NCBI GenBank assembly: GCA_012797375.1
Contig: JAAZPG010000136.1
Location: 1 to 33,264 of the forward strand
Direction of reading: 5' to 3'
DNA: 33,264 bases
From: Acidobacteriota bacterium
GTDB lineage: Bacteria; Acidobacteriota; Aminicenantia; Aminicenantales; UBA4085
Shown here: piece after piece, positions 927 to 27,939 of the stretch
Layout of the letters: every line of letters starts with the position of its first letter
How positions within the stretch are numbered: the stretch's first letter is position 1
Position numbers and translations under genes: made by a program
Notes under the pieces: generated by a model
Told to the model about the DNA's origin: nothing
Databases searched by the model: none
What the model saw: only the letters and a program-made list of their open reading frames with translations

Positions 927-2387
927 TTATTTGATCTCCTCCCCCGTCAGGGGATCGATGAGATTGAGACGGTGGACCTTGCCCAGCTTGTCCAAGGGGC
1001 CGGCCCATTTGTCGCCGCCGTCGTTGCACGGCTCGAAGTCGCCGACGATCAGGATGACCATCTGATCCGGGCGGATGTACTTCCGGGCGACGTCCTGGAC
1101 CCGATCCTTGGTGACGGCCTTGATCTTGTCCCGGAAGGTTTTGAACTCGTTCATCGGCTTTCCTTGCATCTCCAGGTTAGCGAAAGCGGTCATCGTCGCT
1201 TGGGGCATCTCGAACTGGCTGGAGAAGCTGTCGATGTAATAACTGACGGCCGTGTCCATCTCCTCGTCCGTGACCGGCTCCAGTCGGATGCGGTTGAATT
1301 CCGCCTGGATCAGGGAAACGGCATAGCCGACCGTGGACGACTTGGTCTGAACGTAGCCGGCGAACGTGCCCGGGAAGCCCCAGCGGGTGGTGAACCGGCT
1401 GCCCTGGTTGTAGGACAGGCCTTCGTCCGAACGCACCTTGGTCGTGATGCGAGAGGTGAAGCTTCCTCCTCCGAGGATGAAGTTCATCACCTGCACGGCC
1501 GGGTAATCGGGGTGGGTGTCCTCGAGGCCGAGATGACCGAGACTGATGTAGCCTTGGTTGATGGGTTTCTGGATGAAATAGACGCCCGGCTCCGGGGACG
1601 GAAACGACTTGGAAAACGCCGGTATCGCGGGCTTCCGTCCCTTCCAAGCGCGGATGATCTTGTTGATCCCGGCCTCCAGGCCGGCCTTGGAAAAATCCCC
1701 CGAGGCGGCCAGGATGACGTTACCCGGGACGAAATAACGGGCATGGACCGCTTTAAGGTCGGCCGGGGTGACATTCTCATAGGATGATTTCATCGGCCGG
1801 CGGGTCAAGGCATGCCGGCCGTACAGGAGCTTTTCGTATTCCCGATTCAGGATCATCCCCGGCTGATCGTTGGCCTGGCGAAGCTGCTCGATCGCCCGGG
1901 CCTTGGCCAGGGCGAAGGGCGGCTCGCGGAATTCGGGGTTCATCAGGACGTCGAAGAACAGGGCCAAGCCCTCGTCCAGGTCCTTGCTCAGGACGAACAG
2001 GTTGAGGGACGAGGTCCGTTCTCCAACGGCGAATGTCAGCGATCCGCCCAGAAAATCGATCCGTTCCTCGATGGACGCGCCCTCGCGGGTCTTCGTTCCG
2101 CCCCGGATGAGCGTGTCGCCGAGCAGGACGTCCAATCCCTCCTTGCCTTCGGGAACATAGAGACTCCCGAAATCGATCAAGGCGGAAATGTTGACCGCGG
2201 GCAGGGACCGGTCCTCCTGGACATACGCCCGCAAGCCGTTGGCCAGGACCGTCCGGAACGCCTTGGGATCGGGCGGCTCATAGGTCAGGGCGGGGAATTT
2301 TAAATCGGACGGCTTCGTCACTTGAGCCAGGCCCGAGGCAAGGACGAGGATGAACACGCCGATCATCAAGCTGATTGTTTTTTTCAT
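927..2387 (-). CDS. M16 family peptidase-like protein, non-catalytic subunit
   Basis: A 486-residue exported M16 (pitrilysin/processing-peptidase) homologue. The first 22 residues form a signal peptide (MKKTISLMIGVFILVLASGL). The N-terminal M16 domain aligns with the family (VLANGLRAYVQEDRSLPAVN) but the zinc site HxxEH is replaced by EGLDVLLGD near residues 83-91, so it cannot bind zinc in the usual way. The C-terminal domain keeps the substrate-binding-type stretch VRSDEGLSYNQGSRF. It begins 15 bases after the upstream catalytic M16 gene stops, with the ribosome site GGGAGG. In M16B enzymes an active and an inactive subunit commonly form a heterodimer, and this pair fits that pattern. It probably acts in the periplasm on oligopeptides. 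Confidence 0.9.
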   Translation of the reverse strand: MKKTISLMIGVFILVLASGLAQVTKPSDLKFPALTYEPPDPKAFRTVLANGLRAYVQEDRSLPAVNISALIDFGSLYVPEGKEGLDVLLGDTLIRGGTKTREGASIEERIDFLGGSLTFAVGERTSSLNLFVLSKDLDEGLALFFDVLMNPEFREPPFALAKARAIEQLRQANDQPGMILNREYEKLLYGRHALTRRPMKSSYENVTPADLKAVHARYFVPGNVILAASGDFSKAGLEAGINKIIRAWKGRKPAIPAFSKSFPSPEPGVYFIQKPINQGYISLGHLGLEDTHPDYPAVQVMNFILGGGSFTSRITTKVRSDEGLSYNQGSRFTTRWGFPGTFAGYVQTKSSTVGYAVSLIQAEFNRIRLEPVTDEEMDTAVSYYIDSFSSQFEMPQATMTAFANLEMQGKPMNEFKTFRDKIKAVTKDRVQDVARKYIRPDQMVILIVGDFEPCNDGGDKWAGPLDKLGKVHRLNLIDPLTGEEIK

Positions 2388-2402
2388 CGCCGCTTTCCTC
2401 CC

Positions 2403-3923
2403 TTACCGGCCCGTCGTCCGCGTGTAGACGGCGGTCAGGCTGTTGTCCTTGACGAAATATTTCACCGCGACGCGCTTGATGTCGTCGTTGGTCACGTTCT
2501 GGACGGCCTCATTGTCGGCGAGGATCGAGCGCCAGCCCCGGTGAAGCTCGGCCCGGCCGACGGCGCTCGCCAGTCCGGCCGAAAAGGACAAGCTGCGAAC
2601 GAAATTGGCCTCGCTCCGGTTCTTGATTTTTTGAATTTCATCGCCGGTCACGCCGTCCGTCTTGATGTTCTCGATCTCGGCCCAGATTTCTCTCTCCAGA
2701 TCCTCCGGCTTGACGCCTTTGTCCAGACGGGGCGAACCGCTGAACTGGAACGCGCCGACGTACCATTGGGGCCGGTGGAACGCCGCGGCCGAGACGGCCA
2801 GCTGTTTTTCCCGGACCAGGATCTTCTCCAAGCGGCCTGTTCCGCCGCCTCCGCCGCGGGGACCGCCGAAGCCGCCCCGGCCGCCGCCGGCGCCGAGGAT
2901 GCCGGCCAGGACGGTCAAAGGCGCCGCGTCGGGATGGCCGGCCGGAGGGGTATGGAACATCATCTGAAGGCTGGTCGGAGCGGCACCTTCCCCGTACATC
3001 CTTTTCTCCGCGTACTGGGGAGGCTCCGACGTCCGGATCGGCTCGACGTCGGGGCCCCGGGGGATGGGCCCGAAATATTTCTCGGCCAAGGCGAAGATGT
3101 GATCGGGTTTCACGTCGCCGACATAGATGGCCACGGCGTTGTTGGGGATGTAGTACCGGTTGTGAAATTCGATCATGTCGGCCTTGGTCATCTTCTTGAG
3201 GTCGTCCATCCAGCCGATAACGTCCCAGTGGTAGGGGGAAGCGGCGTAAAAGGCGGCCCCGACTTGTTCCCGGAACAGGTAGCCGGGGCTGTTCTCGCTC
3301 AGCCGCCGCTCTTCCATCACGACGTCCTTTTCGGAATAGAATTCCCGAAAATAAGCGTTCCGCATCCGGTCGGCTTCCAGGAGCATTTGAAGCTCGACCT
3401 TGTTGGAGGGTAGAGTCACGTAATATCCCGTGCTTTCCTGGCTCGTCGAGGCGTTGAGGCCGGTGCCGCCGTTCTTCATGTACAACTCCCAGAGGTCATC
3501 CTTGACGATGAAGGCTTTTTCGGCGGCGGTCAGCTCATCGGCTTTTTTTTGGAGCTCGACGATTTTGGCCGGATCGCCGTCCGGCTTCCAATACTTTTCC
3601 CGGTAGATTTGGTCCATGACCTCGTCGATCCGCCGGTCGAGGGCCGCATCCTTCTCGAAATCGGTCACGCCCATCATTTTCGTGCCCTTGAACATCATAT
3701 GCTCGTGGACGTGGGCGATGCCGGTGATGCCGGGCCGCTCGTTGATCGATCCTACCTTGTAATAGACATGGCCGACGACGCGGGGCACGCCCGGATTGGG
3801 GATCACCAGGATTTTCATCCCGTTCCCCAGGGTCTGCTCCTTGACGTCCAGGGTGATCGACCCGGCCGCGGCGAGGGCGGCCAGGACGAGCACCGCGAGC
3901 GAAAGCGTCAAGACGCGCTTCAT
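2403..3923 (-). CDS. M16 family zinc peptidase, catalytic subunit
   Basis: A 506-residue zinc metallopeptidase of family M16. A signal peptide occupies about residues 1-20. The inverted zinc motif HxxEH is present as HVHEH at residues 71-75, and the likely third ligand is Glu163 in NASTSQEST, further away than usual because of a charged helical insert between them. A glycine-rich loop (residues about 335-355, GAGGGRGGFGGPRGGGGGTG) sits near the domain linker and is unusually flexible for the family. The start has a very strong ribosome site, GAGGAGGAGG. It leads a two-gene operon with its catalytically dead partner downstream and likely cleaves peptides in the periplasm for nutrition or quality control. 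Confidence 0.92.
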   Translation of the reverse strand: MKRVLTLSLAVLVLAALAAAGSITLDVKEQTLGNGMKILVIPNPGVPRVVGHVYYKVGSINERPGITGIAHVHEHMMFKGTKMMGVTDFEKDAALDRRIDEVMDQIYREKYWKPDGDPAKIVELQKKADELTAAEKAFIVKDDLWELYMKNGGTGLNASTSQESTGYYVTLPSNKVELQMLLEADRMRNAYFREFYSEKDVVMEERRLSENSPGYLFREQVGAAFYAASPYHWDVIGWMDDLKKMTKADMIEFHNRYYIPNNAVAIYVGDVKPDHIFALAEKYFGPIPRGPDVEPIRTSEPPQYAEKRMYGEGAAPTSLQMMFHTPPAGHPDAAPLTVLAGILGAGGGRGGFGGPRGGGGGTGRLEKILVREKQLAVSAAAFHRPQWYVGAFQFSGSPRLDKGVKPEDLEREIWAEIENIKTDGVTGDEIQKIKNRSEANFVRSLSFSAGLASAVGRAELHRGWRSILADNEAVQNVTNDDIKRVAVKYFVKDNSLTAVYTRTTGR

Positions 3924-10716: not shown

Positions 10717-12765
10717 TCACAGGAAGCCGTACTTCTTTCCGTACTCCAGCATCTGGGCGACGTAATCCTCGGGCAGCGAGATCTTAACGTCGACGATCTT
10801 GCCGCTTCCGTCCGTGACGGGCGTATAGACGGGATTGATGAAGCCGGCGTAGGGAGCCAAGTTCAGCTTGGCGTACCGGGCCAGGACCTCGGCGTGGAGT
10901 TCCGGATCGATCTTGACGCCGTAGGCCTCGACAAGATTCTTGGCGGCCTCGTAATCGCCCTCGCTCGTGATCCGTTGGATCTCGGCCAAAAGCCGGCCGT
11001 AGAGCGTCCGCAGCTTCCGGTAATCGTTGATCACGAAATACGTCTTACCGTCCTTTTCGATCCGGCTGATGACGTTTTCCGGCATCCCTTTCTCATAGAC
11101 CCATTGGGAGACCAGCGCCCGGCTCCGCATGTGGGCCTGCTCGATCGTCTGGCCCGGCTGGATCCGGGTCATCTGGGTCAGGAGGCCGTTGCGGATATTG
11201 GCGTCATACTCGGCCTTGGCCGCGTCCTCGTTCGGCAGCAGGCCGAGCTCGAGGATCTTCGGATCCATGATGTAATAAAGAGCGAACAGGTCGGCCCGGG
11301 CTTCCTCGACCGGGGAATGGTAGTTCTTGAGCGCTTCGGAGCTGACGCCGGGGAGAAGCTGGCCCGAGCCGTGGCCCAAGACCTCGTGGAAATCGGTGTG
11401 AAGGTTGCCGGCTTGCCCGCCGTACGTCCGGCTCCGGTCCAGTTCCTCGGGCGAGGCGGTGAATTCGGGGCCGAAGCCGGAGGCCAGCGAGGACTGGTTA
11501 TAAGCATAGGTGATGTTCTCCAGGGTCACGGACTTGGAGCCGTGATTGACCCGGATCCAGTTGGCGTTGGGCAGGTTGATCCCGATGGGCGTGGACGGGT
11601 AGCAGTCCCCCCCCAGCATGGCCGCGGTGATGACCTTGGCGGCCACGCCCTTGACTTCCTTTTTCTTGAATTTCGGGTCGACCGGCGAGTTGTCCTCGAA
11701 CCATTGGGCGTTGGCCGAGATGAGGTCCGCCCGCTTGGTCGCCTCCAGGTCCTTGAAGTTGACCAGCGATTCCCAGGTCGCTTTCCGCCCCAGCGGGTCG
11801 TTATAGACCTCGATGAAGCCGTTGACGAAATCGATCCGGGAGTCGAGATCGCCGACCCAGAGGATGTTGTATTCATCGAAATCATTCAGGTCGCCGGTCC
11901 GGTAGTACTTGATCAAAGCTTCGATCACTTGCTTCTGCCGGTCGTTTTCGGCGACGCCGGCCGCCTTTTCCAGCCAGAAAACGATCTCCTTGATCGCCGG
12001 CCCGTACATCCCGTCGATCGAGGCGGCGATCTCGGCGACCCGCCCGTCCTTCTTGACGACCTTCGTGTTCAGGCCGTAGGAAACGGGGGTTTCGTCCTTT
12101 GGATCGATGACCTTCTCGTAATACCGCTCCACCTCGGCCTGGGTGACTCCTTCGTAGAAATTAACGGCCGATTGAACCACTAAATCCCGCGAGGAATCCT
12201 GGGAGACCTTCTTCGCATCGACCGCCGGGTCGAAAAGGATCGGCTGAAGGAAGGCGATGAACTCGTCCAGCGACTGCCCCGCGGCCGCCGGAAAGGCCGC
12301 TCCTTCCGAGCCCTTCACCAGCCCGGCGAAATAGTCCGGCTCGATCTCCGGCAGGAACTTGTCCGTCGCGTAATGGTGATGGATGCCGTTGGAAAACCAG
12401 ACCCGCTTGACGTAGGCCATGAACTTGTCCCAGCGCGGATCGGTCCGGTCGCCTTTGTAGCCCTCGACGATCGCGTCCAGCGTTTTGCGGATCGTCAGGT
12501 TATGCCGGTAGTTCTGGTCAAAGACGATGTCCCGGCCGCAGAGAGCCGCCTCCGAGAGGTAATAGACCAGCTCCTTCTGGGACGGCGTCAGGGCTTCAAC
12601 GCCGGGGACTTGGTAGCGGAGGATCCTCAGGTCGGCGAACTGGTCGACCTGCCAGCGGAATTCGGGGGCGGCGGCCGCGGGTCCGGGCTCGCTCTTCTTG
12701 CATCCCGGGACCAGGGGCGCGGCCATGATCAAAACAATCGAAAACAGGACGTTCGAACGGGACAT
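10717..12765 (-). CDS. Peptidase M49 (dipeptidyl-peptidase III) lipoprotein
   Basis: A 682-residue zinc exopeptidase that releases dipeptides from peptide N termini. The zinc motif HEVLGH is at residues 460-465 (HExxxGH type of family M49) and the further ligand Glu488 lies in EEARAD (487-492). The 28-residue distance between them is that of the short bacterial form known from Bacteroides rather than the human form. I chose the ATG at 12763-12765 because of the strong site GAGGAGG and because it gives a lipoprotein signal with lipobox VPGC (Cys22); a longer in-frame reading has no signal. Membrane anchoring suggests that it trims imported peptides at the cell envelope. The amino acid permease is divergent next door. 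Confidence 0.92.
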   Translation of the reverse strand: MSRSNVLFSIVLIMAAPLVPGCKKSEPGPAAAAPEFRWQVDQFADLRILRYQVPGVEALTPSQKELVYYLSEAALCGRDIVFDQNYRHNLTIRKTLDAIVEGYKGDRTDPRWDKFMAYVKRVWFSNGIHHHYATDKFLPEIEPDYFAGLVKGSEGAAFPAAAGQSLDEFIAFLQPILFDPAVDAKKVSQDSSRDLVVQSAVNFYEGVTQAEVERYYEKVIDPKDETPVSYGLNTKVVKKDGRVAEIAASIDGMYGPAIKEIVFWLEKAAGVAENDRQKQVIEALIKYYRTGDLNDFDEYNILWVGDLDSRIDFVNGFIEVYNDPLGRKATWESLVNFKDLEATKRADLISANAQWFEDNSPVDPKFKKKEVKGVAAKVITAAMLGGDCYPSTPIGINLPNANWIRVNHGSKSVTLENITYAYNQSSLASGFGPEFTASPEELDRSRTYGGQAGNLHTDFHEVLGHGSGQLLPGVSSEALKNYHSPVEEARADLFALYYIMDPKILELGLLPNEDAAKAEYDANIRNGLLTQMTRIQPGQTIEQAHMRSRALVSQWVYEKGMPENVISRIEKDGKTYFVINDYRKLRTLYGRLLAEIQRITSEGDYEAAKNLVEAYGVKIDPELHAEVLARYAKLNLAPYAGFINPVYTPVTDGSGKIVDVKISLPEDYVAQMLEYGKKYGFL

Positions 12766-12811
12766 GCGATCCTCCTCATCGGCGAATGGAACGGGAATGA
12801 CATCACGGGAA

Positions 12812-12841
12812 AGCATATCAAAACGCCCGCCCCCCTGACAA
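12812..12841 (-). promoter_or_regulatory. Possible sigma-70 promoter of the M49 gene
   Basis: TTGTCA (12836-12841) and TATGCT (12812-12817) on the minus strand, spaced 18 bases, about 45 bases before the start codon. Confidence 0.4.
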
Positions 12842-12968
12842 TCCCGCGGAAGAGCCGGCCGGCGGATTTTTTCCCTTTTCCTTGATTTTTTTGCTAAGAT
12901 ATGGGGCTTCAGTCCACGGAACGGCCTTCCGACCCGCGCCGGACCGCCCCTTTCCGCGAGGAGAAACC

Positions 12969-15026
<2,058 letters not shown>

Positions 15027-18119: not shown

Positions 18120-19724
18120 TTATTTTTTGTACAGGTCCCCGCCCTTGTCGTCGTAGATGAGGAAGGCGGGAAGATCCTTGACGACGATCCGGCGGACCGC
18201 TTCCATCCCCAGGTCGGCGAAATCGATGACTTCGCTCCGGATGATGTGCTCCTTAGCGATCAGGGCGGCCGCGCCGCCGATCGTTCCGAGGAAGAATCCG
18301 CCGTGTTCCCGGCAGGCTTCGACGACCTTGGGGGAACGGTTTCCCTTGGCCAGGGTGATTTTCGAAGCCCCGGCGGCCATGAGGGCCGGCAGGTAACCGT
18401 CCATCCGCTGGGCCGTGGTCGGGCCGAAGCTCCCGGAGGCCATCCCCCGCGGCGTCTTGGCCGGCCCGGCGTAATAAACGGGGTGGTTCTTGAAATAGTC
18501 GGGGAGGCGGCCCGTTTCCTTGAACATCTTCCAGATCCGGGCGTGGGCGATATCCCGGGCGACGACGAGCGGCCCGGACAGCCGGACCATCGTTCCGACC
18601 GGCAAGGCCGACAGGTCCCGGAGAATTTCCGCGATCGGCCGGTCCAGATCGACCGCCGTTGCTCCGGGGGTCGAACCGGAGGGAATCCCCTCGAGGAACC
18701 TCCCGGGATCTTTCTCGAGCTGCTCGATAAACAGCCCTTCCGCGGTGATCTTCCCCCGGCAGTTTCGGTCGGCGTTGCAGGAAACGCCGATCCCCACCGG
18801 ACACGAGCCGGCATGCCTCGGCAGGCGGATGAATCGCGCCTCGTGGACCAGGAAACGGCCTCCGAACTGGGCGCCCAGGCCGGTTTCCTCGGCGATTTTC
18901 GCCAGCCGTCCCTCCCATTCCGCGTCGCGGAAGGCGATTCCGCTTTTCTTTCCCCGCGTCGGCAGGGAATCCAGGAAGCCGGCCGAGGCCAGCTTGACCG
19001 TTTTCATCGTCATCTCGGGCGAGAGTCCGCCTAGAACAACGGCCAGCCGGTAGGGCGGGCAGGCGGCCACGCCCAGGGCCCGAACGTGCTCGGCTAGGAA
19101 AGCCTCGAGCTTCTTTTCCTCCAGGAGGGCCTTGGACTCCTGGAACAAGGCCGTCTTGTTGGACGATCCGCCGCCCTTAGCCATGAAATAGAAATGGTAT
19201 TCCTCCCCCTCGGACGCCAGGAGGTCGACCTGGGCCGGAAGATTCGTCCCCGTGTTGGCTTCCTCGAAAACGGAGAGCGGGGCGACGAGCGAATACCGGA
19301 GGTTCCGCTTCCGGTAAACGTCCCGGAGGCCGGACGTCAGGGCTTCTTCATCCCGGCCGTCGGTCAGAACACGGTGTCCCTTGAAGCCGACCACCTGGGC
19401 CGAGCCGGTATCCTGGCACAGGGGCAGAACGCCCTCGCCCGCGATGGCCGCGTTCCTGAGAATCGCCCCGGCGACGAAGCGCTCGTTGTCCGAGGCCCGC
19501 GGGTCGTCGACGATCGCCCGGATGCGCTTCAAGAAGGCCGGCCGCAGGTAAAAGGCCAGGTCGGAAAAAGCTTCCGCGGCCAGCAGAACCAAGCCCGCAT
19601 GATCGACGGCGAGCGCCTCCCCCCCGGAGCACTTCACCCGGCGGACAAACCGGTCCGAAACCCGCCGGTATCGCGTCCGGTCCGGCCGCTGCGGGAAAAG
19701 CTTGAAAGGCTTGGGGGCGCTCAT
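18120..19724 (-). CDS. Class I fumarase-type hydratase, probable mesaconase
   Basis: A 534-residue iron-sulfur hydro-lyase of the one-subunit class I fumarase type. The three cluster ligands are in place: Cys103 (PLCQDTGSA), Cys222 (ACPPYRLAVVLGG) and Cys316 (SCNADRNC). The C-terminal beta-type half contains GPLVVARDIAHARIWKMF, YYAGPAKTPRGMASGSFGPTTAQRMD and KGNRSP. I chose the ATG at 19722-19724, whose AAGGAG overlaps the previous stop; an ATG seven codons earlier lacks a site. As last gene of a glutamate mutase/methylaspartate lyase operon it most likely hydrates mesaconate to citramalate; class I fumarases are known to do this. Fumarate activity may coexist. Confidence 0.9.
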   Translation of the reverse strand: MSAPKPFKLFPQRPDRTRYRRVSDRFVRRVKCSGGEALAVDHAGLVLLAAEAFSDLAFYLRPAFLKRIRAIVDDPRASDNERFVAGAILRNAAIAGEGVLPLCQDTGSAQVVGFKGHRVLTDGRDEEALTSGLRDVYRKRNLRYSLVAPLSVFEEANTGTNLPAQVDLLASEGEEYHFYFMAKGGGSSNKTALFQESKALLEEKKLEAFLAEHVRALGVAACPPYRLAVVLGGLSPEMTMKTVKLASAGFLDSLPTRGKKSGIAFRDAEWEGRLAKIAEETGLGAQFGGRFLVHEARFIRLPRHAGSCPVGIGVSCNADRNCRGKITAEGLFIEQLEKDPGRFLEGIPSGSTPGATAVDLDRPIAEILRDLSALPVGTMVRLSGPLVVARDIAHARIWKMFKETGRLPDYFKNHPVYYAGPAKTPRGMASGSFGPTTAQRMDGYLPALMAAGASKITLAKGNRSPKVVEACREHGGFFLGTIGGAAALIAKEHIIRSEVIDFADLGMEAVRRIVVKDLPAFLIYDDKGGDLYKK

Positions 19725-19734
19725 TCTCGTCTCC

Positions 19735-20697
19735 TTATTCTCCATATCCTTCGAGATACTCCTCGATATCGATCATTTCCTCGAACCCGGCCGAGGATTT
19801 CTGCCCCACCAGGCCGACGATGTAGTACTCCTTGGTCCGGGAATCGAAACGGTATTCGTGCAGAAGCCGGAAGTTTTCGATCTCTCCGGCTGTTTTCACA
19901 TGAGTCCGGGTCCCGGTGCAGGGCATGGCGTGCCGGCCGATGCGGATGCGGTTTTCGCCGCAGGCGGCGATCGGCTCGTTCCGGGCGATGACCTCGTTGA
20001 CCTTGCGCTCGAGCTCCTTGAGGTCGACGTTGGGCCGGTGGTTGAAATTGAGGACGAATCCCTGCCGGACGTCGGAGTGGAGCGGAGGGAACGGGAAATG
20101 GTAATCCCGTTTCAAGATCGAACAGGTGATGTCTTCGGCCGAGTGGGCCATCAGCCGGTACTTGATCGTCCGGTCGACGATGTCCTTGATCGCCTGGGGA
20201 AACGGACCGAAAACCGTCGGCCGGGCGACGATGATCTCCTCGCCGATGCCGAACAGAACCTGGGCGTTGTAGCCGAGGGCTTGGTAAACCAGGTCGAAAT
20301 GCTCGATGATCACCCGCCGGCCGTGGGTAACGGCCTTGTGGATGACCTCGGCCAGCTCGAACTTCTGGTGGAAAGCCAGCTCGTAGCGGACGTCGATGTG
20401 AAACGTGTGCCCGGAAAAGGCGTCCTTGGGATCGAAGTCGATGAGCGGCGTCGGCCGGACGTTGATCCCGTCATCGTCGTTGGTCAGCTCCAATCCGGGG
20501 AAGAGCCCCTTGATGAGGGTCGATTTCCCGGAGCCCTCCGCCCCGAGGACGCCGATCACGAGATCCGTCGGGGTGAGGTATTTCTGGGACAGCTCGGCCG
20601 CGACCAGGTAAAGGCGGTTCCGGCCGCGCGGGGCGTAATACGTGGCGTAGATGAGCGTTTCCCGGTGAACCGTCCGCTGCGGACTGGACTTCATCAT
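19735..20697 (-). CDS. P-loop NTPase fused to an AlaX-like (tRNA_SAD) domain
   Basis: A 320-residue protein with an N-terminal P-loop (Walker A GAEGSGKS at residues 52-59 and a downstream RRVIIEHFDL strand that could supply the Walker B acid) and a C-terminal part similar to the second additional domain of alanyl-tRNA synthetase and AlaX. In that domain the first zinc motif HxxxH appears as HSAED (185-189), so the second His is Asp, and the second motif appears as PCTGTRTHVKTAGEI (259-273), with two residues inserted between the usual CxGT and H. The catalytic or metal role may therefore be changed. It sits between DUF4387 and the fumarase in the methylaspartate operon, with GGAGGAGG before its ATG. 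Function unknown; tRNA editing alone does not explain its place. Confidence 0.75.
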   Translation of the reverse strand: MMKSSPQRTVHRETLIYATYYAPRGRNRLYLVAAELSQKYLTPTDLVIGVLGAEGSGKSTLIKGLFPGLELTNDDDGINVRPTPLIDFDPKDAFSGHTFHIDVRYELAFHQKFELAEVIHKAVTHGRRVIIEHFDLVYQALGYNAQVLFGIGEEIIVARPTVFGPFPQAIKDIVDRTIKYRLMAHSAEDITCSILKRDYHFPFPPLHSDVRQGFVLNFNHRPNVDLKELERKVNEVIARNEPIAACGENRIRIGRHAMPCTGTRTHVKTAGEIENFRLLHEYRFDSRTKEYYIVGLVGQKSSAGFEEMIDIEEYLEGYGE

Positions 20698-20714
20698 GTC
20701 CGGCCTCCTCCGCG

Positions 20715-21026
20715 TCAGAACATCAGGCTCAAGAGCGGCGCGTGCTGCTGGGCGCCGTAGATGTCGGTCTCGCCCGGGTGGCCGGACGGAATCGGCCGCT
20801 TGAGGGTGACCTTCAGGGCCTTGGCCGGCTCGAAGTAAACGATCTTGAGGACGTCGGCGGGCCGGCAGCGGTACAGTCGGGCGATTGTGGCCTTGGTCAC
20901 GGCGTTCGACCGCCGGAACAGGTCATAGCCTTTCCGGTCCTTGAAAATGATGTCCAGGGTCAGCTCGTACGGACCGCTGTTTTTCGACCGGATGACCTTG
21001 GCCACGGATAATATGCTGCGTTTCAT
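20715..21026 (-). CDS. DUF4387 family protein
   Basis: A 103-residue soluble protein that I recognise as DUF4387 from the N-terminal KVIRSKNSGPYELTLDIIF and the central YCR-type stretch RLYRCRPADVLKIVYFEPAKALKVTLKRP. DUF4387 proteins are commonly found beside, or fused to, AtuA-like DUF1446 proteins, as here, with a 16-base gap. The two are therefore likely subunits of one enzyme. The reaction is not established. GAGGAG precedes the ATG. Confidence 0.8.
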   Translation of the reverse strand: MKRSILSVAKVIRSKNSGPYELTLDIIFKDRKGYDLFRRSNAVTKATIARLYRCRPADVLKIVYFEPAKALKVTLKRPIPSGHPGETDIYGAQQHAPLLSLMF

Positions 21027-21042
21027 GGGACGGCTCCTCGTC

Positions 21043-22407
21043 TCAAATGGTGACGACCTTGACCGGGAAAGGGGTCCGGCCGGTCAACGGCATCAGGTGG
21101 TAGACCGAAAATTCGAACGTCTCTCCCATTCTGACATCCGAAGGCGAAAAAGGAAAGGCCAGGTTGCCCGCCGTCGAGATCCGGCCCGGGTAGCCGTAAT
21201 GGAGGAGAGTCGAGCGGGTGATGCTGCAGAGCGAATCGGCCGCCTCCGGCGTCGATCCGACGGCCTCGATGACGATCCCAAGCTCGTGGCTCCGGATCTT
21301 CGTCTCGGGCTCCAAGGGGCCCATGACCCCGTCCTTGCCGTAGACGTGGAACTGGATGCGGCCGTCGATTTTCTCAGCCTTGAGGATGTCGCGGACTTGG
21401 CCGGTGACGGCTTCCAGGATCGCGTCGATCTCCTTGATCATGATGGGATCCCGCGTGCCGGCGACCGAGATCGTCCGGAAACCGGTCCGCCGAACGCCCT
21501 CGAGCTTGACGTAATATTCGGGCGTCGGGACATGGCGGCTTCCCCGAACCTCGACCCGGCCGCCGGGCAGGGCGGTGAACGTGCAGGCGGTCAGATCCAG
21601 CTCGCCGCCGGGGCCTGGAAGGTGGTAGGGATCGGTTTTTTCGTAGAGGGTGTGGGCGGCCGTGGATTCGGGAGTGAACGTCCGGGCCGGATTGAGCGTT
21701 TCCAGGATGAAGGAATCCCCGCGGAGAACGCCCAGGGCGCAATCCGCCCCCGAGCCCGGGGTGGCCGCGATGGCCGCGCACTCGAGGATCTTGCCCATGT
21801 GGAGGGCCAAACCCTCATCGAATCCCCGCATGACCGGAAGGGCGGCGAAGACCGCCGGATCATAGCATCGTCCGGCCAGGACGACCTGGCATCCCCTCCG
21901 GAGGGCCTCTTGGATCGGTTCGACGCCCATCTGGGCGACGATGTGGAGGGAGTCGTCCAGCATTTTTTCTGTCAGGGGCGGGACGTAGGCCAGGGGGACG
22001 ATTTCCCCCTTCCGAAGGTGTTTCCGGACGCGCTCCTTCGGAATGTCGGCGTAGATGATGCCCAGGGTGAAGGCCAACTTTTCCTCCCGGGCGATTTCCC
22101 GGATGATCGCCTCGCACCAATCGACATGGGGACGGGCGCCGCTGCCGCCGGCCGTGCCGATGACCACGGGGATGCCCCGCCGCACGCCTTCCCTCAGCAT
22201 AAAACGAAGGTCGCGCTTGACGCCGGACCGATTGGTGAAGGCCTTCCCGGCTCCGAGATAATACGGGCCGGGGTCGGTCGAGCCGGCGTCGGCTCCGATC
22301 AAGTGGGGTTTGCGGGCCAGGCCGGCCCGGAACGATTTCTCCGGAAAGCCGTAGCCGAGAATGGCGGTGGCGGAAAGAACACGGAATTCTTTTTCACGGG
22401 AAGTCAT
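21043..22407 (-). CDS. AtuA-like protein (DUF1446)
   Basis: A 454-residue protein of the acyclic terpene utilisation AtuA family (DUF1446). Recognisable parts are the N-terminal LIGADAGSTDPGPYYLGAGK, the GTAGGSGARPHVDW loop near residue 85, GRCYDPAVFAALP in the middle, and PHLPGPGG/ELDLT-type C-terminal strands. The start lies 2 bases after the methylaspartate lyase stop, and its ribosome site GAGGGG is inside that gene's end. In Pseudomonas AtuA belongs to the citronellol/geranyl-CoA pathway but its exact reaction is not settled. Here, paired with DUF4387 in a methylaspartate operon, it probably acts on a C5 branched acid such as mesaconate or citramalate, or on their CoA ester. That role is inference. 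Confidence 0.82.
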   Translation of the reverse strand: MTSREKEFRVLSATAILGYGFPEKSFRAGLARKPHLIGADAGSTDPGPYYLGAGKAFTNRSGVKRDLRFMLREGVRRGIPVVIGTAGGSGARPHVDWCEAIIREIAREEKLAFTLGIIYADIPKERVRKHLRKGEIVPLAYVPPLTEKMLDDSLHIVAQMGVEPIQEALRRGCQVVLAGRCYDPAVFAALPVMRGFDEGLALHMGKILECAAIAATPGSGADCALGVLRGDSFILETLNPARTFTPESTAAHTLYEKTDPYHLPGPGGELDLTACTFTALPGGRVEVRGSRHVPTPEYYVKLEGVRRTGFRTISVAGTRDPIMIKEIDAILEAVTGQVRDILKAEKIDGRIQFHVYGKDGVMGPLEPETKIRSHELGIVIEAVGSTPEAADSLCSITRSTLLHYGYPGRISTAGNLAFPFSPSDVRMGETFEFSVYHLMPLTGRTPFPVKVVTI

Positions 22408-22409
22408 GG

Positions 22410-23660
22410 TTATTTCCCCTCAGGGCGGGCCCGAAGCACCGCCAGAATGCGCTCCATCTCGTTGCGGACGATCATAAAGCCCTCGTCGAATCCCATCCCG
22501 GGCTTGGCCAGCAGACGTTCGGCCCGGGCGGCCACGGCCGCGTGGACGCAGGCGCGGGCCGAGACGTCCGACTCGTTGCAGGTGCCGCCCTGGTAGGCTT
22601 CCATGCCGTGCCTCCGGCAGTAAAGGACGCTCTCGATGGTGTTCTGGATCCCGCCCAGGTCGGGCGTCTTGATTTGGACCATGTCGCAGCAGGCGGCGTC
22701 GGTGAAATCGCGGACGTCTTCCAAGGTGTTGCACCACTCGTCGGCCACGATCTTGACCGAGGAGCCGCGCCGGCGGAGAGTCTCCCGAACCTTCCCGAGA
22801 AGCTCAATCTGCCGGGCCTTTTCCTCGGCGTCGACCGGCCCTTCGATGTACAGCGGGAACTCGGCCGAATCCTCCTCGAGCGAGGCGAGGTAATCGGCCA
22901 CTCGTCCCGGGTCGAGCCCGAAGATTTGTCCGATCGTCCCGTAGACGTCGATATGGAGGGTCGGACGGTAGGAGGGTTCGGTCCGGAACGCGCGGATCCG
23001 GTCGGCCAGCCAGCGGATGTACGCCCGAAGCAGCTCCCCGTTCCGACCGAGCTTTTCGTCGACGTTGTTGATCAGGGCGTGGGGCAGGACGTCCACGCCT
23101 TTGAGGATCATCTTGTCGGCGTTGACGTAGCGGTCGTCCCCGGTCTGGCCGAAGACGGGGACGCGCTCGGCGACGACCGGGAGATTGTATTCCTCGCAGA
23201 TGATCTCGGCCATGAGCCGGTGACGGTCGAACGCCCGGGCTTGGAGGAGGGCTTGGGACAGTCCGTAGCGGACGGCGGTATGGAGCCGCACACCGTCGAA
23301 TTCCAGGTTTTCGACCTCCCCGGCCATCGTCCGGAACGGTCCGATCTCCCGCCCTTCGAGCAGCGGCCGGATGCGCGTCTCGAGCAGGGGCAAGTAATCC
23401 GCGGCCAGGAAGAGCGGATCGCGCCCTCCGGCTCCGGAATACTGAACCGCGGCGCAATCCCCTCCGGCGACGGCTCCGTTCTCCAGGACGAGGAGAATGG
23501 ACAAGATTTCTCCGGCCACCCGGACGGACTTGAAATGGGGCGTGGCCGGCTGCCCGGTGTAAAAAAATCCGTCGTGGCCGGCCCCGGCCTTGATGGCCCG
23601 CTGGTCGTCGAAATAGAAGGCGGACGACCCGGGCACGAACAGCGTTTTGACAATTTTCAT
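22410..23660 (-). CDS. mal: Methylaspartate ammonia-lyase
   Basis: A 416-residue enolase-superfamily enzyme that eliminates ammonia from (2S,3S)-3-methylaspartate to give mesaconate. The TIM-barrel residues match the Clostridium tetanomorphum enzyme without any shift in numbering: His194 (LPHAL), metal ligands Asp238 (HIDVYG), Glu273 (IEGPVD) and Asp307 (VADEWC), and catalytic Lys331 (QIKTPDLGG). Length is also as expected (413 in Clostridium). The start overlaps the glmE stop by 4 bases (ATGA), so the two are coupled. It draws the product of glutamate mutase onward and needs Mg2+ and a monovalent cation by family knowledge. Confidence 0.96.
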   Translation of the reverse strand: MKIVKTLFVPGSSAFYFDDQRAIKAGAGHDGFFYTGQPATPHFKSVRVAGEILSILLVLENGAVAGGDCAAVQYSGAGGRDPLFLAADYLPLLETRIRPLLEGREIGPFRTMAGEVENLEFDGVRLHTAVRYGLSQALLQARAFDRHRLMAEIICEEYNLPVVAERVPVFGQTGDDRYVNADKMILKGVDVLPHALINNVDEKLGRNGELLRAYIRWLADRIRAFRTEPSYRPTLHIDVYGTIGQIFGLDPGRVADYLASLEEDSAEFPLYIEGPVDAEEKARQIELLGKVRETLRRRGSSVKIVADEWCNTLEDVRDFTDAACCDMVQIKTPDLGGIQNTIESVLYCRRHGMEAYQGGTCNESDVSARACVHAAVAARAERLLAKPGMGFDEGFMIVRNEMERILAVLRARPEGK

Positions 23661-25105
23661 TTCGGCCTCCCGATCAGTTTGCTCTTGCTGATGGCATAGA
23701 TATCATCGGTCACCATCTGGAAGGTGACCGCCCGGCCTTCGGCCTTGGCCCTCTCGGCCAGGCGTTCCTTGTGGAAGGCCATGATCTCGTCGGACAAGGG
23801 AAGATTGCCTTTGGCGAAGAGGCGGATAAACCCCTCGTTGTCGCGGGCCGGAAGAACCCGGCCGCGGTTGAAGATGGACGGGGCGAACGGCACGTCCAGC
23901 AGGCCGCCGGCGAACGCCCGGACGATCCCTTGGATCGGGTCGCCGCCCGAGGCGTTCTCCACGGCGTTCATCAAGCAAGCCACTTCCTCCCGGATCAAGT
24001 TCTTCTCCCGGCGGATGATGTCGTTGTCGCCGCAGATTATTTGGTCCGTCAGCATGGATAAAATCTGGCGGGTGGTTTTGAGGCCGGCGGCGTTGGCTTC
24101 CTTGGTCGGAATCCCGGCGGCCTCATGGGGCGACTTGACGATGATTTTTTCCACGCCGGCCGCGGCCGCGACGAACGAGCCGAGGCTGATGACGGCGAAC
24201 GCCTTGGCCTCGTCCTCGGGAAATCCGCCCATCCACTGATGAAAAACGATCGTCAGGTCGAAATCGGTGAAACCGGCCTTTTCGAAATATTCGCCGGCCA
24301 GTTCCCGCAGCGAGGAGAGGGCGGCCAGGTCCTGGAGAACGTTGCCGCCCTGGCCGTAGCCGAGAGTGATGGATTTGGCGCCTTGTTCGAGGGCCAGGAG
24401 ACCCTCCAGGATGGCCACGGTGTGTCCGATGAACGGCGGCAGGAGGGTTCCGGTCAGCGGCCCGAACGGCTCGCGGTTGATCGAGACGCCGTTTTCCTCG
24501 TACCAGCCGACCAGCCGGTCGATATAGCGCCACGCCCGGAGCGAGTCCCCGAGCTCGACTTTCTTGGCGTACGGGATGTTGTAGGAAATGCCGCCGCCCT
24601 CGAAGCTGGTGAATCCGCCGGCCAGCGAGATCTCGGCCAGGAGCCGGGCGTCAGGCGTGCCATGGCGGACTTGGATCGGTTTGGTCACGGCTTCGGTCAC
24701 CCGGCGGCAGCCGCCCAGGCCGTGGTTCACCGCCGGAAAGCCGTTGAGAAGGGAATGGCCGGCGGCCGTCGATTTCTCGATCCCGACGGCCGCTTCCTCG
24801 TACCGGTTCTGGCGGGTATAGGCGTCGATCGTCGTCGGAAGCAGGTCGGCCGTGCCCTCGGTCTCCAAGAAGCGCAGGAGACGGATGTGATCATCGATCA
24901 GAGCCACGCCCGCCCGGGGCTGGATCAAGGTCCGGCCCTTGGCCTTGGCCCCGCTCATCGCCCGGGCGAAGTTCTTCGCCTCGGGAATGTCCCGTTGGTA
25001 GCGGAGCCCTCCCTCCAAGTCGACGTCCTTGCCGGTCGGCCAGGTTGCCAGAACGGATTTGCGCTGGGTCAAGAAATCCTTCCAGGCCATGGGTTCGTAT
25101 CTCAT
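23657..25105 (-). CDS. glmE: Glutamate mutase epsilon subunit
   Basis: A 482-residue TIM-barrel subunit of adenosylcobalamin-dependent glutamate mutase, almost the same length as the 483-residue Clostridium cochlearium protein. The N-terminal RTLIQPRAGVALIDDHIRLL, the central VRHGTPDARLLAEISLAGGFTSFEGGGISYNIPY and YGQGGNVLQD are characteristic. With GlmS it interconverts L-glutamate and (2S,3S)-3-methylaspartate. It begins 4 bases after glmL, with AAGGAT as ribosome site, and overlaps mal by 4 bases. Recent family usage also names it mutE. Confidence 0.96.
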   Translation of the reverse strand: MRYEPMAWKDFLTQRKSVLATWPTGKDVDLEGGLRYQRDIPEAKNFARAMSGAKAKGRTLIQPRAGVALIDDHIRLLRFLETEGTADLLPTTIDAYTRQNRYEEAAVGIEKSTAAGHSLLNGFPAVNHGLGGCRRVTEAVTKPIQVRHGTPDARLLAEISLAGGFTSFEGGGISYNIPYAKKVELGDSLRAWRYIDRLVGWYEENGVSINREPFGPLTGTLLPPFIGHTVAILEGLLALEQGAKSITLGYGQGGNVLQDLAALSSLRELAGEYFEKAGFTDFDLTIVFHQWMGGFPEDEAKAFAVISLGSFVAAAAGVEKIIVKSPHEAAGIPTKEANAAGLKTTRQILSMLTDQIICGDNDIIRREKNLIREEVACLMNAVENASGGDPIQGIVRAFAGGLLDVPFAPSIFNRGRVLPARDNEGFIRLFAKGNLPLSDEIMAFHKERLAERAKAEGRAVTFQMVTDDIYAISKSKLIGRPK

Positions 25106-25109
25106 GCGT

Positions 25110-26504
25110 TCATCCTTTTAAAACACGGAGTCCGCCGACGGCCGTCCGGGCGGCGGCGTCGGGATAATCCCCGGCCAGGTTCGCCAGCAGGGGGAAGAGA
25201 TACCCCTCATCGGCGTAAGCCGCGGGGGAAACCGGAAGCAGGGGTTGGGAATCGGCGTCGGCTTGGCCGGGGGCGCAGGCCTCCAGGAGAATCGCGGCGT
25301 TTTCGGTCCGGGAGAGATATCCCCCGGTCCCGATCAAGCGAGTGATCCGGCGGAGATCCTTGCCCCGCTGAACGTGAAAGCCGCCCTGGGGCGTGTAAAC
25401 CCGGCTGAGCGTTCCGGCGTGACGGAGAGCGGCCGCCCGGACGCAGGCGGCGGCCATCATCTCGTCATACGCCCGCTCGGCGCCGCCTTCGGGCCGCGAC
25501 TCCGGTTGAGCGGAAACGCGGTGGATGTACGCGTCGAAATCCTCGATCGAACGGCCGGCGGCCGCCAGGCGCGAGGTCAAGTACGCCCGCTCGGATTCCC
25601 ACAAGGCGGCGGCCGAGACGCGGAGTCCGAGGTCGCCCTCGACCGTCCGCTTGAGAAGGGGTTCGTGCAGGCCGCGAAGCAGGACCGAATCCCCTCCGGT
25701 GAAGGCCTCCGTGTGGGAGTAGAAGTCCGTGGTCGCCCCGCCCATGTCGACGAGACCGAAATCGGACCAGCCCGGCTGGGAGGCCCCGATCCGGCGGACG
25801 AGCTCGAAGACGGCCAGCGGCGTCGGCCAGGGATCGCGACCGGTCTCGCGGACGACGGTCGACAGTCCCTTGCCGTCGACGATCCGCTTGAGGAAGATCT
25901 TCCGGATGACTTCGCGGGCCGGCTCGATCTGGATCGTCCCGACCTCGGGCATGACGTTATCGGTGGCGGCCGCCGCCTTGCCGTCGAGCAAGGCCAGGAC
26001 CCGGTCGCGGACCTTGGCGTTGCCGGCATAGAGGATGAACGCGGCGGTCGAGGACCGGCCCAGGAGCTCCGCGTTGCGGAGGACGACGGCCGAATTGCCT
26101 CCGTCGGTGCCCCCGGTGAAGAGGATGATGTCGGGTTGGAGGGCTTCGAGGCCGGCGATCTCGTCGGCCGCGAGCTCATAGGAATACGTCCGGACGATCT
26201 TGCCTCCGGCCGAATACGCGGCCATCCGGGCGATCGAAAGAGTCAAGTCGGCCGTCAGCCCGAGAGCCGCGATCTTAAGACCGCCTCGGGCGGAGGAGGA
26301 CAAGTAAACCGGAAAATCCTCCGGCCCTCGGCCGCCGGGGCCGAGTTTCTCCCGGACCCGGCCGAAACCGACGGCCAGGTTGTCGGCCGTCGTCGGCGTC
26401 TCGGCCCGGGAGAGAAGCCGGAAAGCCCCCGCCTCCAGGGCGAACAGGGCGCCCTTGGTGTAGGTCGACCCGATGTCGATCGAGGCGAGGGCCGAGGGCG
26501 TCAT
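25110..26504 (-). CDS. glmL: GlmL/MutL, ASKHA-fold partner of glutamate mutase
   Basis: A 464-residue protein with the actin-like ATPase phosphate motifs DIGSTYTKG (residues 10-18) and [11 protein letters not shown], close in length to the 462-residue MutL of C. tetanomorphum. It is always found between the small and large mutase genes and is thought to act as chaperone or reactivase that exchanges damaged cobalamin; it is unrelated to the DNA mismatch repair MutL. Its ATG overlaps the glmS stop by 4 bases and it has no ribosome site of its own, so translation is coupled. Confidence 0.93.
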
Positions 26505-26923
26505 GGACGGCTCGCGGCGGCGATATCGGCTTTCAGCATCTTGACGACCTCGGCCAGGTCGACCTGGGGGCGGAAGACGCGGTTGAAGCCCATGTCCAAG
26601 AACTTCTTCTCGACCTCCTCATAGGGCGTTTTGCCGACCACGAGGTTGCCGCCGACATAGAGGAGAATGCGGTCCAGGCCGCGCTCGATGCATTTGGCCC
26701 GAAGGCCTTCGCAGTCGATTTCTCCGTGACCGTAAAGAGAGGAGACGAGGATGGCCGCGGCATCCGTCTCAACGGCCGCGTCGATAAATTCCTCCTGGCT
26801 GACCATCACTCCGAGGTTGGTCACATGAAAACCCGCCTCGGAGAAATAGGCATCCAGGATCTTGTTGCCGACCGAGTGACAGTCGGCCCCGATGACGCCG
26901 AGAACGATATTTTGCGGATTCAT
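26501..26923 (-). CDS. glmS: Glutamate mutase sigma subunit, B12-binding
   Basis: A 140-residue Rossmann-like cobalamin-binding subunit. The base-off/His-on motif DxHxxG is Asp14-His16-Gly19 ([12 protein letters not shown]), with His16 at the same position as in C. cochlearium. Further signatures are [22 protein letters not shown] and [10 protein letters not shown]. The start ATG shares one base with the stop of the GntR gene and has AGGAG at 7 bases. It presents the corrin to the GlmE barrel. Confidence 0.96.
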
Positions 26924-27927
26924 CAGACGCTCCTTTTTTCCTCGTCCAGGAGCGTTCGCAGCCGCTCTTCGACATGAAGGAGCGAGCCCCGCTCGATTTG
27001 GTAATCGAAGGGGATGATGATCCCGCCCCGCTCGGTGAACGCCTGGAGAGCGGGCAAGTGCTCCCGGTTTTTCTGCAGGGAATACCCGGCCGGAACGATG
27101 ACCGCGTCGAGCGCGGCGATGAACTCGTCGAGACGCTCGAGCTGGGAGATGAAGAGGGTTTTGACGCCGGTGGAGGGGATGTCGAACGTCCGGAGATGGT
27201 CCAGGATGATCGCCTGAAACTTTCTCGATTCGCTGAGGATGCCGATCCGCTGAGCCGGCGTGAGCCGGGCCAGGCTGATGATGGACGTCCGGGTCGGGGC
27301 GACGGCCACCTGGACGGCCTTGCTCCGGATTTCGGGGAAGCGGTCGATCAATTCCTGGTAATGGGTGGTGGTCGTCAAAACGAGGTCGAAGATCTCGAGA
27401 CGGGCGCCCGCCCCGGGATCCTCGAACAAGTCGTCCAGGTCGATCCGAGCCAGGTTGACGTTGGGGATCAGGAGAAACTGGCGCTCGAAAATCGTCAGGG
27501 TTTCGGGATTGCAATCGATGGCGGCCACCGAGAGATTCCGCAGGCTGTCCTCCCGGCCCAGCAGGCGGAGGTCGAAGAACATCCGAATGTCCTGGGCGGA
27601 AAACTTAAGGCGACCCAGTTGATCCAATAGCTCGTCGATCAGCCGGATCGCCCGGTCTTTGCGATCCTCGACCGGGGCGACCGCTTCCCCGGCGACGAAA
27701 GATCCGCGGCCGGAAAACGCTTCGATGAGCCCGCGGCGGACGAGCTCCTCGTAGGCTCTTTTAACCGTTCCCCGGGCCGTCCCGTGTTCCTCGGCGAGCT
27801 CGCGCTCGGGAGGGAGCTTGTCGCCGGGAAGAAGAACGCGGTTTTTTATCTGCTGGTCGAAAAAGGAGATGATTTGCTGATAAGCGGGCGGAGCGGAAGA
27901 GCTTTTGTCCAGCTTCATCTTTTCCAT
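26923..27927 (-). CDS. GntR family regulator of the glutamate mutase operon
   Basis: A 334-residue regulator with an N-terminal GntR winged helix (residues about 12-78, [41 protein letters not shown]) and a C-terminal region of about 250 residues that I cannot place among the usual FadR, HutC or MocR effector domains. It has alternating strands and helices, e.g. [26 protein letters not shown] and [11 protein letters not shown], reminiscent of a two-lobed binding fold. Start: ATG at 27925-27927 with GGAGG at 5 bases, preferred over a TTG 4 codons upstream. It is the first gene of the operon and its promoter carries three copies of one 8-bp half-site, so it likely controls itself and the pathway in response to glutamate or an intermediate. 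Confidence 0.88.
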
Positions 27928-27939
27928 GATTTCCTCCAA

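Follow-up and report, generated by a model that had tools for sequence, protein, structure and literature searches.

AtuA-DUF4387 as the probable citramalate lyase of a glutamate-fermentation operon in an Acidobacteriota bacterium

How is citramalate split in a bacterium that carries the methylaspartate route of glutamate breakdown but none of the lyase genes with which clostridia finish it? This question is raised by a contig of an Acidobacteriota bacterium (assembly GCA_012797375.1, contig JAAZPG010000136.1), analysed over positions 1 to 33,264 and called the window below. Here three genes, encoding an AtuA family protein, a DUF4387 family protein and a protein of 320 residues (orf320), lie between the methylaspartate ammonia-lyase gene mal and the gene of a probable mesaconase. 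A sequence-only reading of the same DNA proposed that this trio was a candidate new step and that its products might form one complex. We favor, with a probability of about 0.88, a reading in which the operon encodes the methylaspartate route, AtuA-DUF4387 is its two-subunit citramalate lyase (CmlAB) and orf320 is an accessory gene outside the lyase.

Operon layout and proposed pathway

The open reading frame list and profile searches place nine genes on the minus strand in the order gntR-glmS-glmL-glmE-mal-AtuA-DUF4387-orf320-class I fumarase (Table 1). With glmS, glmE and mal above equivalog cut-offs and class I fumarase domains in the same operon, the locus is assigned to the methylaspartate pathway; against a further model, NF040745, glmL reaches 447.9 bits (cut-off 475). 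The AtuA, DUF4387 and orf320 frames are all open, and their coordinates and tight spacing agree with what the sequence-only reading had described: the gaps are 2 bp (mal/AtuA), 16 bp (AtuA/DUF4387) and 17 bp (DUF4387/orf320), and orf320 overlaps the fumarase gene by 11 bp. The window fumarase is 49% identical to the fumarase at the FumD position of the E. coli glm-mal cluster, and the GntR regulator is 28% identical to that of the Peptoclostridium glm-mal cluster. No RNA families were found in the window, and scans of it for promoters and terminators gave scores no better than shuffles.

Table 1. Features of the window and related loci discussed in the text
Feature	Position	Strand	Basis or remark
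Two M16 peptidases, M49 dipeptidyl-peptidase, amino-acid permease	927-3923; 10717-13047; 12882-15026	-; -; +	near the operon
Single-chain class I fumarase, probable mesaconase	18120-19745	-	PF05681/PF05683
orf320, 320 residues	19735-20697	-	N-terminal P-loop half (GAEGSGKS) and C-terminal SAD-like half
DUF4387 family, cmlB-like, small subunit of proposed citramalate lyase	20715-21026	-	PF14330, 4.1e-39
AtuA/DUF1446 family, cmlA-like, large subunit of proposed citramalate lyase	21043-22407	-	PF07287, 2.5e-21
mal, methylaspartate ammonia-lyase	22410-23660	-	TIGR01502 equivalog, 567 bits
glmE, glutamate mutase subunit E	23657-25105	-	TIGR01503 equivalog, 708 bits
glmL, glutamate mutase reactivation partner	25110-26504	-	PF13941, 2.4e-122; TIGR01319 above cut-off
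glmS, glutamate mutase subunit S	26501-26929	-	NF002612/TIGR01501 equivalogs above cut-off
GntR-family regulator, first on operon side	26923-27939	-	PF00392, 4.8e-16
ORF of 1538 residues	28045-32661	+	Pfam AMP-binding enzyme within first ~640 residues only
orf320 family, other loci	L010:11968-12933; L005:10452-11396		
AtuA-DUF4387 region, Neorhizobium	L006:8616-11825		class I fumarase homologue beside or near the pair
AtuA-DUF4387 region, Klebsiella plasmid	L007:8614-16671		class I fumarase homologue beside or near the pair

In the proposed pathway, glutamate mutase GlmSE, kept active by GlmL, would convert glutamate to 3-methylaspartate, which Mal would deaminate to mesaconate. Hydration by the class I fumarase would then yield (S)-citramalate, and AtuA-DUF4387, acting as CmlAB in place of the clostridial CitDEF, would split (S)-citramalate into acetate and pyruvate, needing neither an acyl-carrier protein nor CitCXG.

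We further note that the peptidases and the permease near the operon fit a lifestyle based on peptides and amino acids. In the long plus-strand frame beyond the GntR gene, the remaining ~900 residues match no Pfam family at 1e-5.

Relation of the pair to known citramalate lyases

Both proteins of the pair match, across almost their whole length, the two subunits of a protein deposited under PDB 9erq and 9evf as citramalate lyase subunits A and B. Window AtuA aligns with 9erq_A at 2e-177 (residues 6-445 of 454), an entry whose molecule name reads both 'Acyclic terpene utilization AtuA family protein' and 'Citramalate lyase, subunit A (cmlA)', and the CmlA entry is also the sole match (4.1e-241) of an AtuA family profile searched against the PDB. 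Window DUF4387 aligns with 9erq_B, 'Citramalate lyase, subunit B (cmlB)', at 4.5e-32 (residues 1-103 of 103). The small-subunit sequence of 9erq_B closely resembles the DUF4387 copies of E. coli and Salmonella, and the sequence suggests that the solved protein is enterobacterial; the window proteins are ~60% (AtuA) and ~52% (DUF4387) identical to the enterobacterial copies. The citramalate lyase activity of CmlAB is taken here from the depositors' molecule names, and we found no paper describing CmlAB in the openly available literature.

Since AtuA and DUF4387 match CmlA and CmlB, the step would be the ordinary one, citramalate to acetate and pyruvate, carried out by an enzyme unrelated to the clostridial CitDEF. 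Judged by its sequence, the pair is thus a member of an enzyme type already deposited, and it very probably supplies the final step that seemed to be missing from glutamate fermentation. What stands of the 'candidate new step' is that the pair takes the place of a citF-type lyase; the step itself is a known one, done by a non-homologous enzyme. Nor is the chemistry of AtuA and DUF4387 wholly unsettled, as had been stated, given that 9erq and 9evf are deposited as citramalate lyase.

This assignment is accompanied by a lack of alternatives. The window holds no citramalate lyase genes, as the sequence-only reading had noted, and profile searches of the organism's own genome, a metagenome-assembled genome that is 89% complete in 524 contigs, gave no match to CitF (PF04223), to HpcH_HpaI (PF03328, the family of CitE-type and citramalyl-CoA lyases) or to a PEP-mutase-type lyase. 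The genome therefore lacks, as assembled, the CitF and CitE-type subunits that define a classical CitDEF enzyme. Because the assembly is 89% complete and in 524 contigs, this absence is likely rather than proven; the 12 mal-bearing relatives described below lend independent support to the absence of a classical lyase. The clostridial CitDEF with CitCXG serves the same step of the same pathway from the same place in the gene cluster, but no sequence relation between CitDEF and AtuA-DUF4387 was found. Since the operon contains no genes for an acyl-carrier protein, CitCXG, a CoA-transferase or a CoA-ester lyase, free (S)-citramalate is most likely cleaved directly by the window pair.

When 22 AtuA proteins are placed in one tree, that of the window falls in a clade of 11 rows together with the mal-linked copies of E. 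coli and Salmonella (support 98/97). Ten residues are common to the mal-linked AtuA proteins and two fumarase-linked copies, on Neorhizobium and Klebsiella plasmids, and are not found in eight copies from other contexts. Among the residues invariant in all 22 proteins are D40, D45, D183, E209, C210, E256, E303, E375 and H437, and acidic residues among them probably serve catalysis or metal binding.

Those eight copies have flavin oxidoreductases, transporters, RraA, citrate synthase and others as neighbours. Because they sit in so many other contexts, the name citramalate lyase should not be extended to the entire AtuA family, and the wider AtuA-DUF4387 family need not always be one. The same diversity of settings, with the nearest two relatives (Neorhizobium and Klebsiella plasmids) near a class I fumarase homologue, could indicate that the window pair catalyses a related step or takes a related substrate (mesaconate, another 2-alkylmalate or a CoA ester, for instance), while citramalate is cleaved elsewhere. 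We consider this improbable: each subunit has its match in a protein deposited as citramalate lyase, searches of the genome turned up neither another citramalate lyase nor a citramalyl-CoA lyase, and the operon has no gene for a CoA-transferase. The Neorhizobium and Klebsiella plasmid pairs themselves lie in catabolic gene sets without mal, and they may cleave other 2-alkylmalates.

Distribution and alternatives beside mal

Across the phylum, mal is found at full strength in 12 of 294 genomes, and DUF4387 occurs in exactly those 12; orf320 is present in the same 12 genomes in a draw of 297. The order glmE-mal-AtuA-DUF4387-orf320-fumarase is kept in every one of them (12/12), so the arrangement is not a chance one. 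The 12 genomes are related, spanning two families and four genera; even so, the association of mal, DUF4387 and orf320 is far beyond chance. The sequence-only reading named what would count against it, a full lyase set elsewhere in the genome and no co-occurrence of the trio with mal; no lyase was found, and the trio accompanies mal in all 12 mal-bearing genomes of the phylum. That AtuA-DUF4387 acts in the pathway, with citramalate as its likely substrate, agrees with both the co-occurrence and the PDB names.

Mutual exclusion between the pair and citF, which the sequence-only reading had suggested surveying, was followed in the phylum Acidobacteriota and in plasmid-collection records. CitF occurs in 47 of the 294 genomes of the phylum and in none of the 12 that bear mal, the expected direction, although taken alone this is a weak exclusion signal: given 47/294, chance would produce it in ~12% of cases, and these are related genomes. 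The exclusion may also not be absolute, because the cluster of Dictyoglomus thermophilum, listed among those similar to citramalate-lyase clusters, also has a DUF1446 gene after mal (PMC4682846).

Annotated plasmid-collection records containing mal show three kinds of occupant in the slot beside it. In E. coli, Salmonella and Prevotella the slot holds AtuA-DUF4387, and the enterobacterial clusters share with the window the order of the pair after mal but have no orf320 following DUF4387. In Peptoclostridium acidaminophilum it holds citF, a CoA ester lyase gene and citD, with citC and citX. In Ensifer, Gemmobacter and Mesorhizobium (L102, L103, L104) a CaiB CoA-transferase and a CoA-ester lyase take the same place, with a fumarase nearby; these alphaproteobacterial clusters thus end in a CoA-dependent third ending of the methylaspartate pathway. 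This route, pairing a CaiB-type CoA-transferase with a CitE-like citramalyl-CoA lyase, occupies the same post-mal slot but works through a CoA ester, and its lyase family, HpcH_HpaI, is the one without a match in the window's own genome. Because citramalate splitting is known or predicted for the other two occupants, AtuA-DUF4387 is best read as a third way of doing it.

The enterobacterial clusters carry a longer-standing question. In E. coli O157 the glm-mal cluster encodes the mesaconase FumD and, after mal, a DUF1446 protein without an assigned function; in a 2015 study the citrate lyase of this strain showed no citramalate activity, no citramalate lyase activity was seen under the conditions used, and what becomes of citramalate was not resolved (PMC4682846). 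Of 5426 complete E. coli genomes, 1099 (about a fifth) carry the AtuA-DUF4387 region. That the window copy is active as a citramalate lyase we infer from homology, gene order, phylogeny, co-occurrence and the missing alternatives together.

The accessory gene orf320

orf320 has no Pfam match above cut-off and belongs to no named family. Its P-loop is invariant in the 12 members, and its C-terminal half aligns with the editing domain of ThrRS (hhalign 92%, P 6e-7; unrelated controls 0.2-0.4%) better than with AlaX-type proteins (41%), so that the earlier 'AlaX' label was roughly right, with ThrRS as the closer relative. The tRNA_SAD family is recognised in 10 of the 12 members (best 1.4e-4); the window copy scores 14 bits against a Pfam cut-off of 24, and one relative passes at 25.1 bits. 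Compared with the editing (SAD) domains of ThrRS and AlaRS and with AlaX, orf320 differs in its fusion to a P-loop half, in the window copy falling under the Pfam cut-off and in altered metal ligands at the editing site, where HxxxH becomes HxxxD/E and C-x3-H becomes C-x5-H, the last His being lost in Prevotella. An AlphaFold2 model built from a two-sequence alignment had a pLDDT of 35 and was discarded. A genome-collection scan returned only two close relatives, both in Candidatus Aminicenantes MAGs and one of them 91% identical, and scans of viral contigs for orf320 and AtuA found nothing.

The distribution of orf320 bears directly on the suggestion that the products of all three genes assemble into a single complex, orf320 being an ATP-driven subunit of the lyase. 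Such a complex would account for the tight spacing and for the constant AtuA-DUF4387-orf320 order in the 12 genomes and in Prevotella, where the gap is wider. However, either part occurs apart from the other: the E. coli and Salmonella clusters contain AtuA-DUF4387 but no orf320, and in Peptoclostridium acidaminophilum orf320 stands between citC and citX in a classical citramalate-lyase (citDEF) cluster, on a record that has no AtuA-DUF4387. The deposited structures, moreover, list only two protein subunits that match the operon, and orf320 gave no match. We therefore reject the three-gene complex as very improbable. orf320 occurs in all sampled mal-bearing relatives of the phylum and with both lyase types (Prevotella, Peptoclostridium), and since the pair occurs without it and it occurs with the classical lyase, orf320 is not a lyase subunit but an accessory gene of the pathway.

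What the accessory role might be can be framed in two ways. The safer reading, possible though still tentative, is that orf320 matures or regulates, in an ATP- or GTP-dependent manner, an enzyme that the pathway variants share, either glutamate mutase or the mesaconase. This is consistent with the invariant P-loop and with the position of the gene, which overlaps the start of the fumarase gene in the window and adjoins split fumarase genes in Prevotella, but in Peptoclostridium it lies with citC and citX in a stretch where no fumarase is annotated, glutamate mutase already has GlmL, and searches linked the orf320 sequence to no known maturation factor. The boldest reading, which we regard as unlikely, is that orf320 acts in quality control, as the first member of a family in which a P-loop NTPase is coupled to an editing domain of the ThrRS type. 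Its SAD-like half would clear tRNA mischarged with 3-methylaspartate (or would sense this amino acid), and orf320 would for that reason follow the pathway whichever lyase is used. The SAD relation, the tie to mal in 12/12 genomes and the presence with both lyase types point this way; against it, the editing metal ligands are altered, with the last His gone in Prevotella, no tRNA-binding part was recognised, and orf320 is absent from the enterobacterial clusters. If true, orf320 would protect cells from a metabolic amino acid during glutamate fermentation, traveling with the pathway irrespective of its lyase. The analysis singles out orf320 as a small gene of amino-acid fermentation whose role can be tested.

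With AtuA-DUF4387 as the probable CmlAB, the locus would answer where citramalate goes in mal-bearing bacteria without CitDEF, and the methylaspartate route would appear as one pathway with three interchangeable last steps. The labels 'AtuA' and 'DUF4387' would thereby gain a concrete function in this clade.
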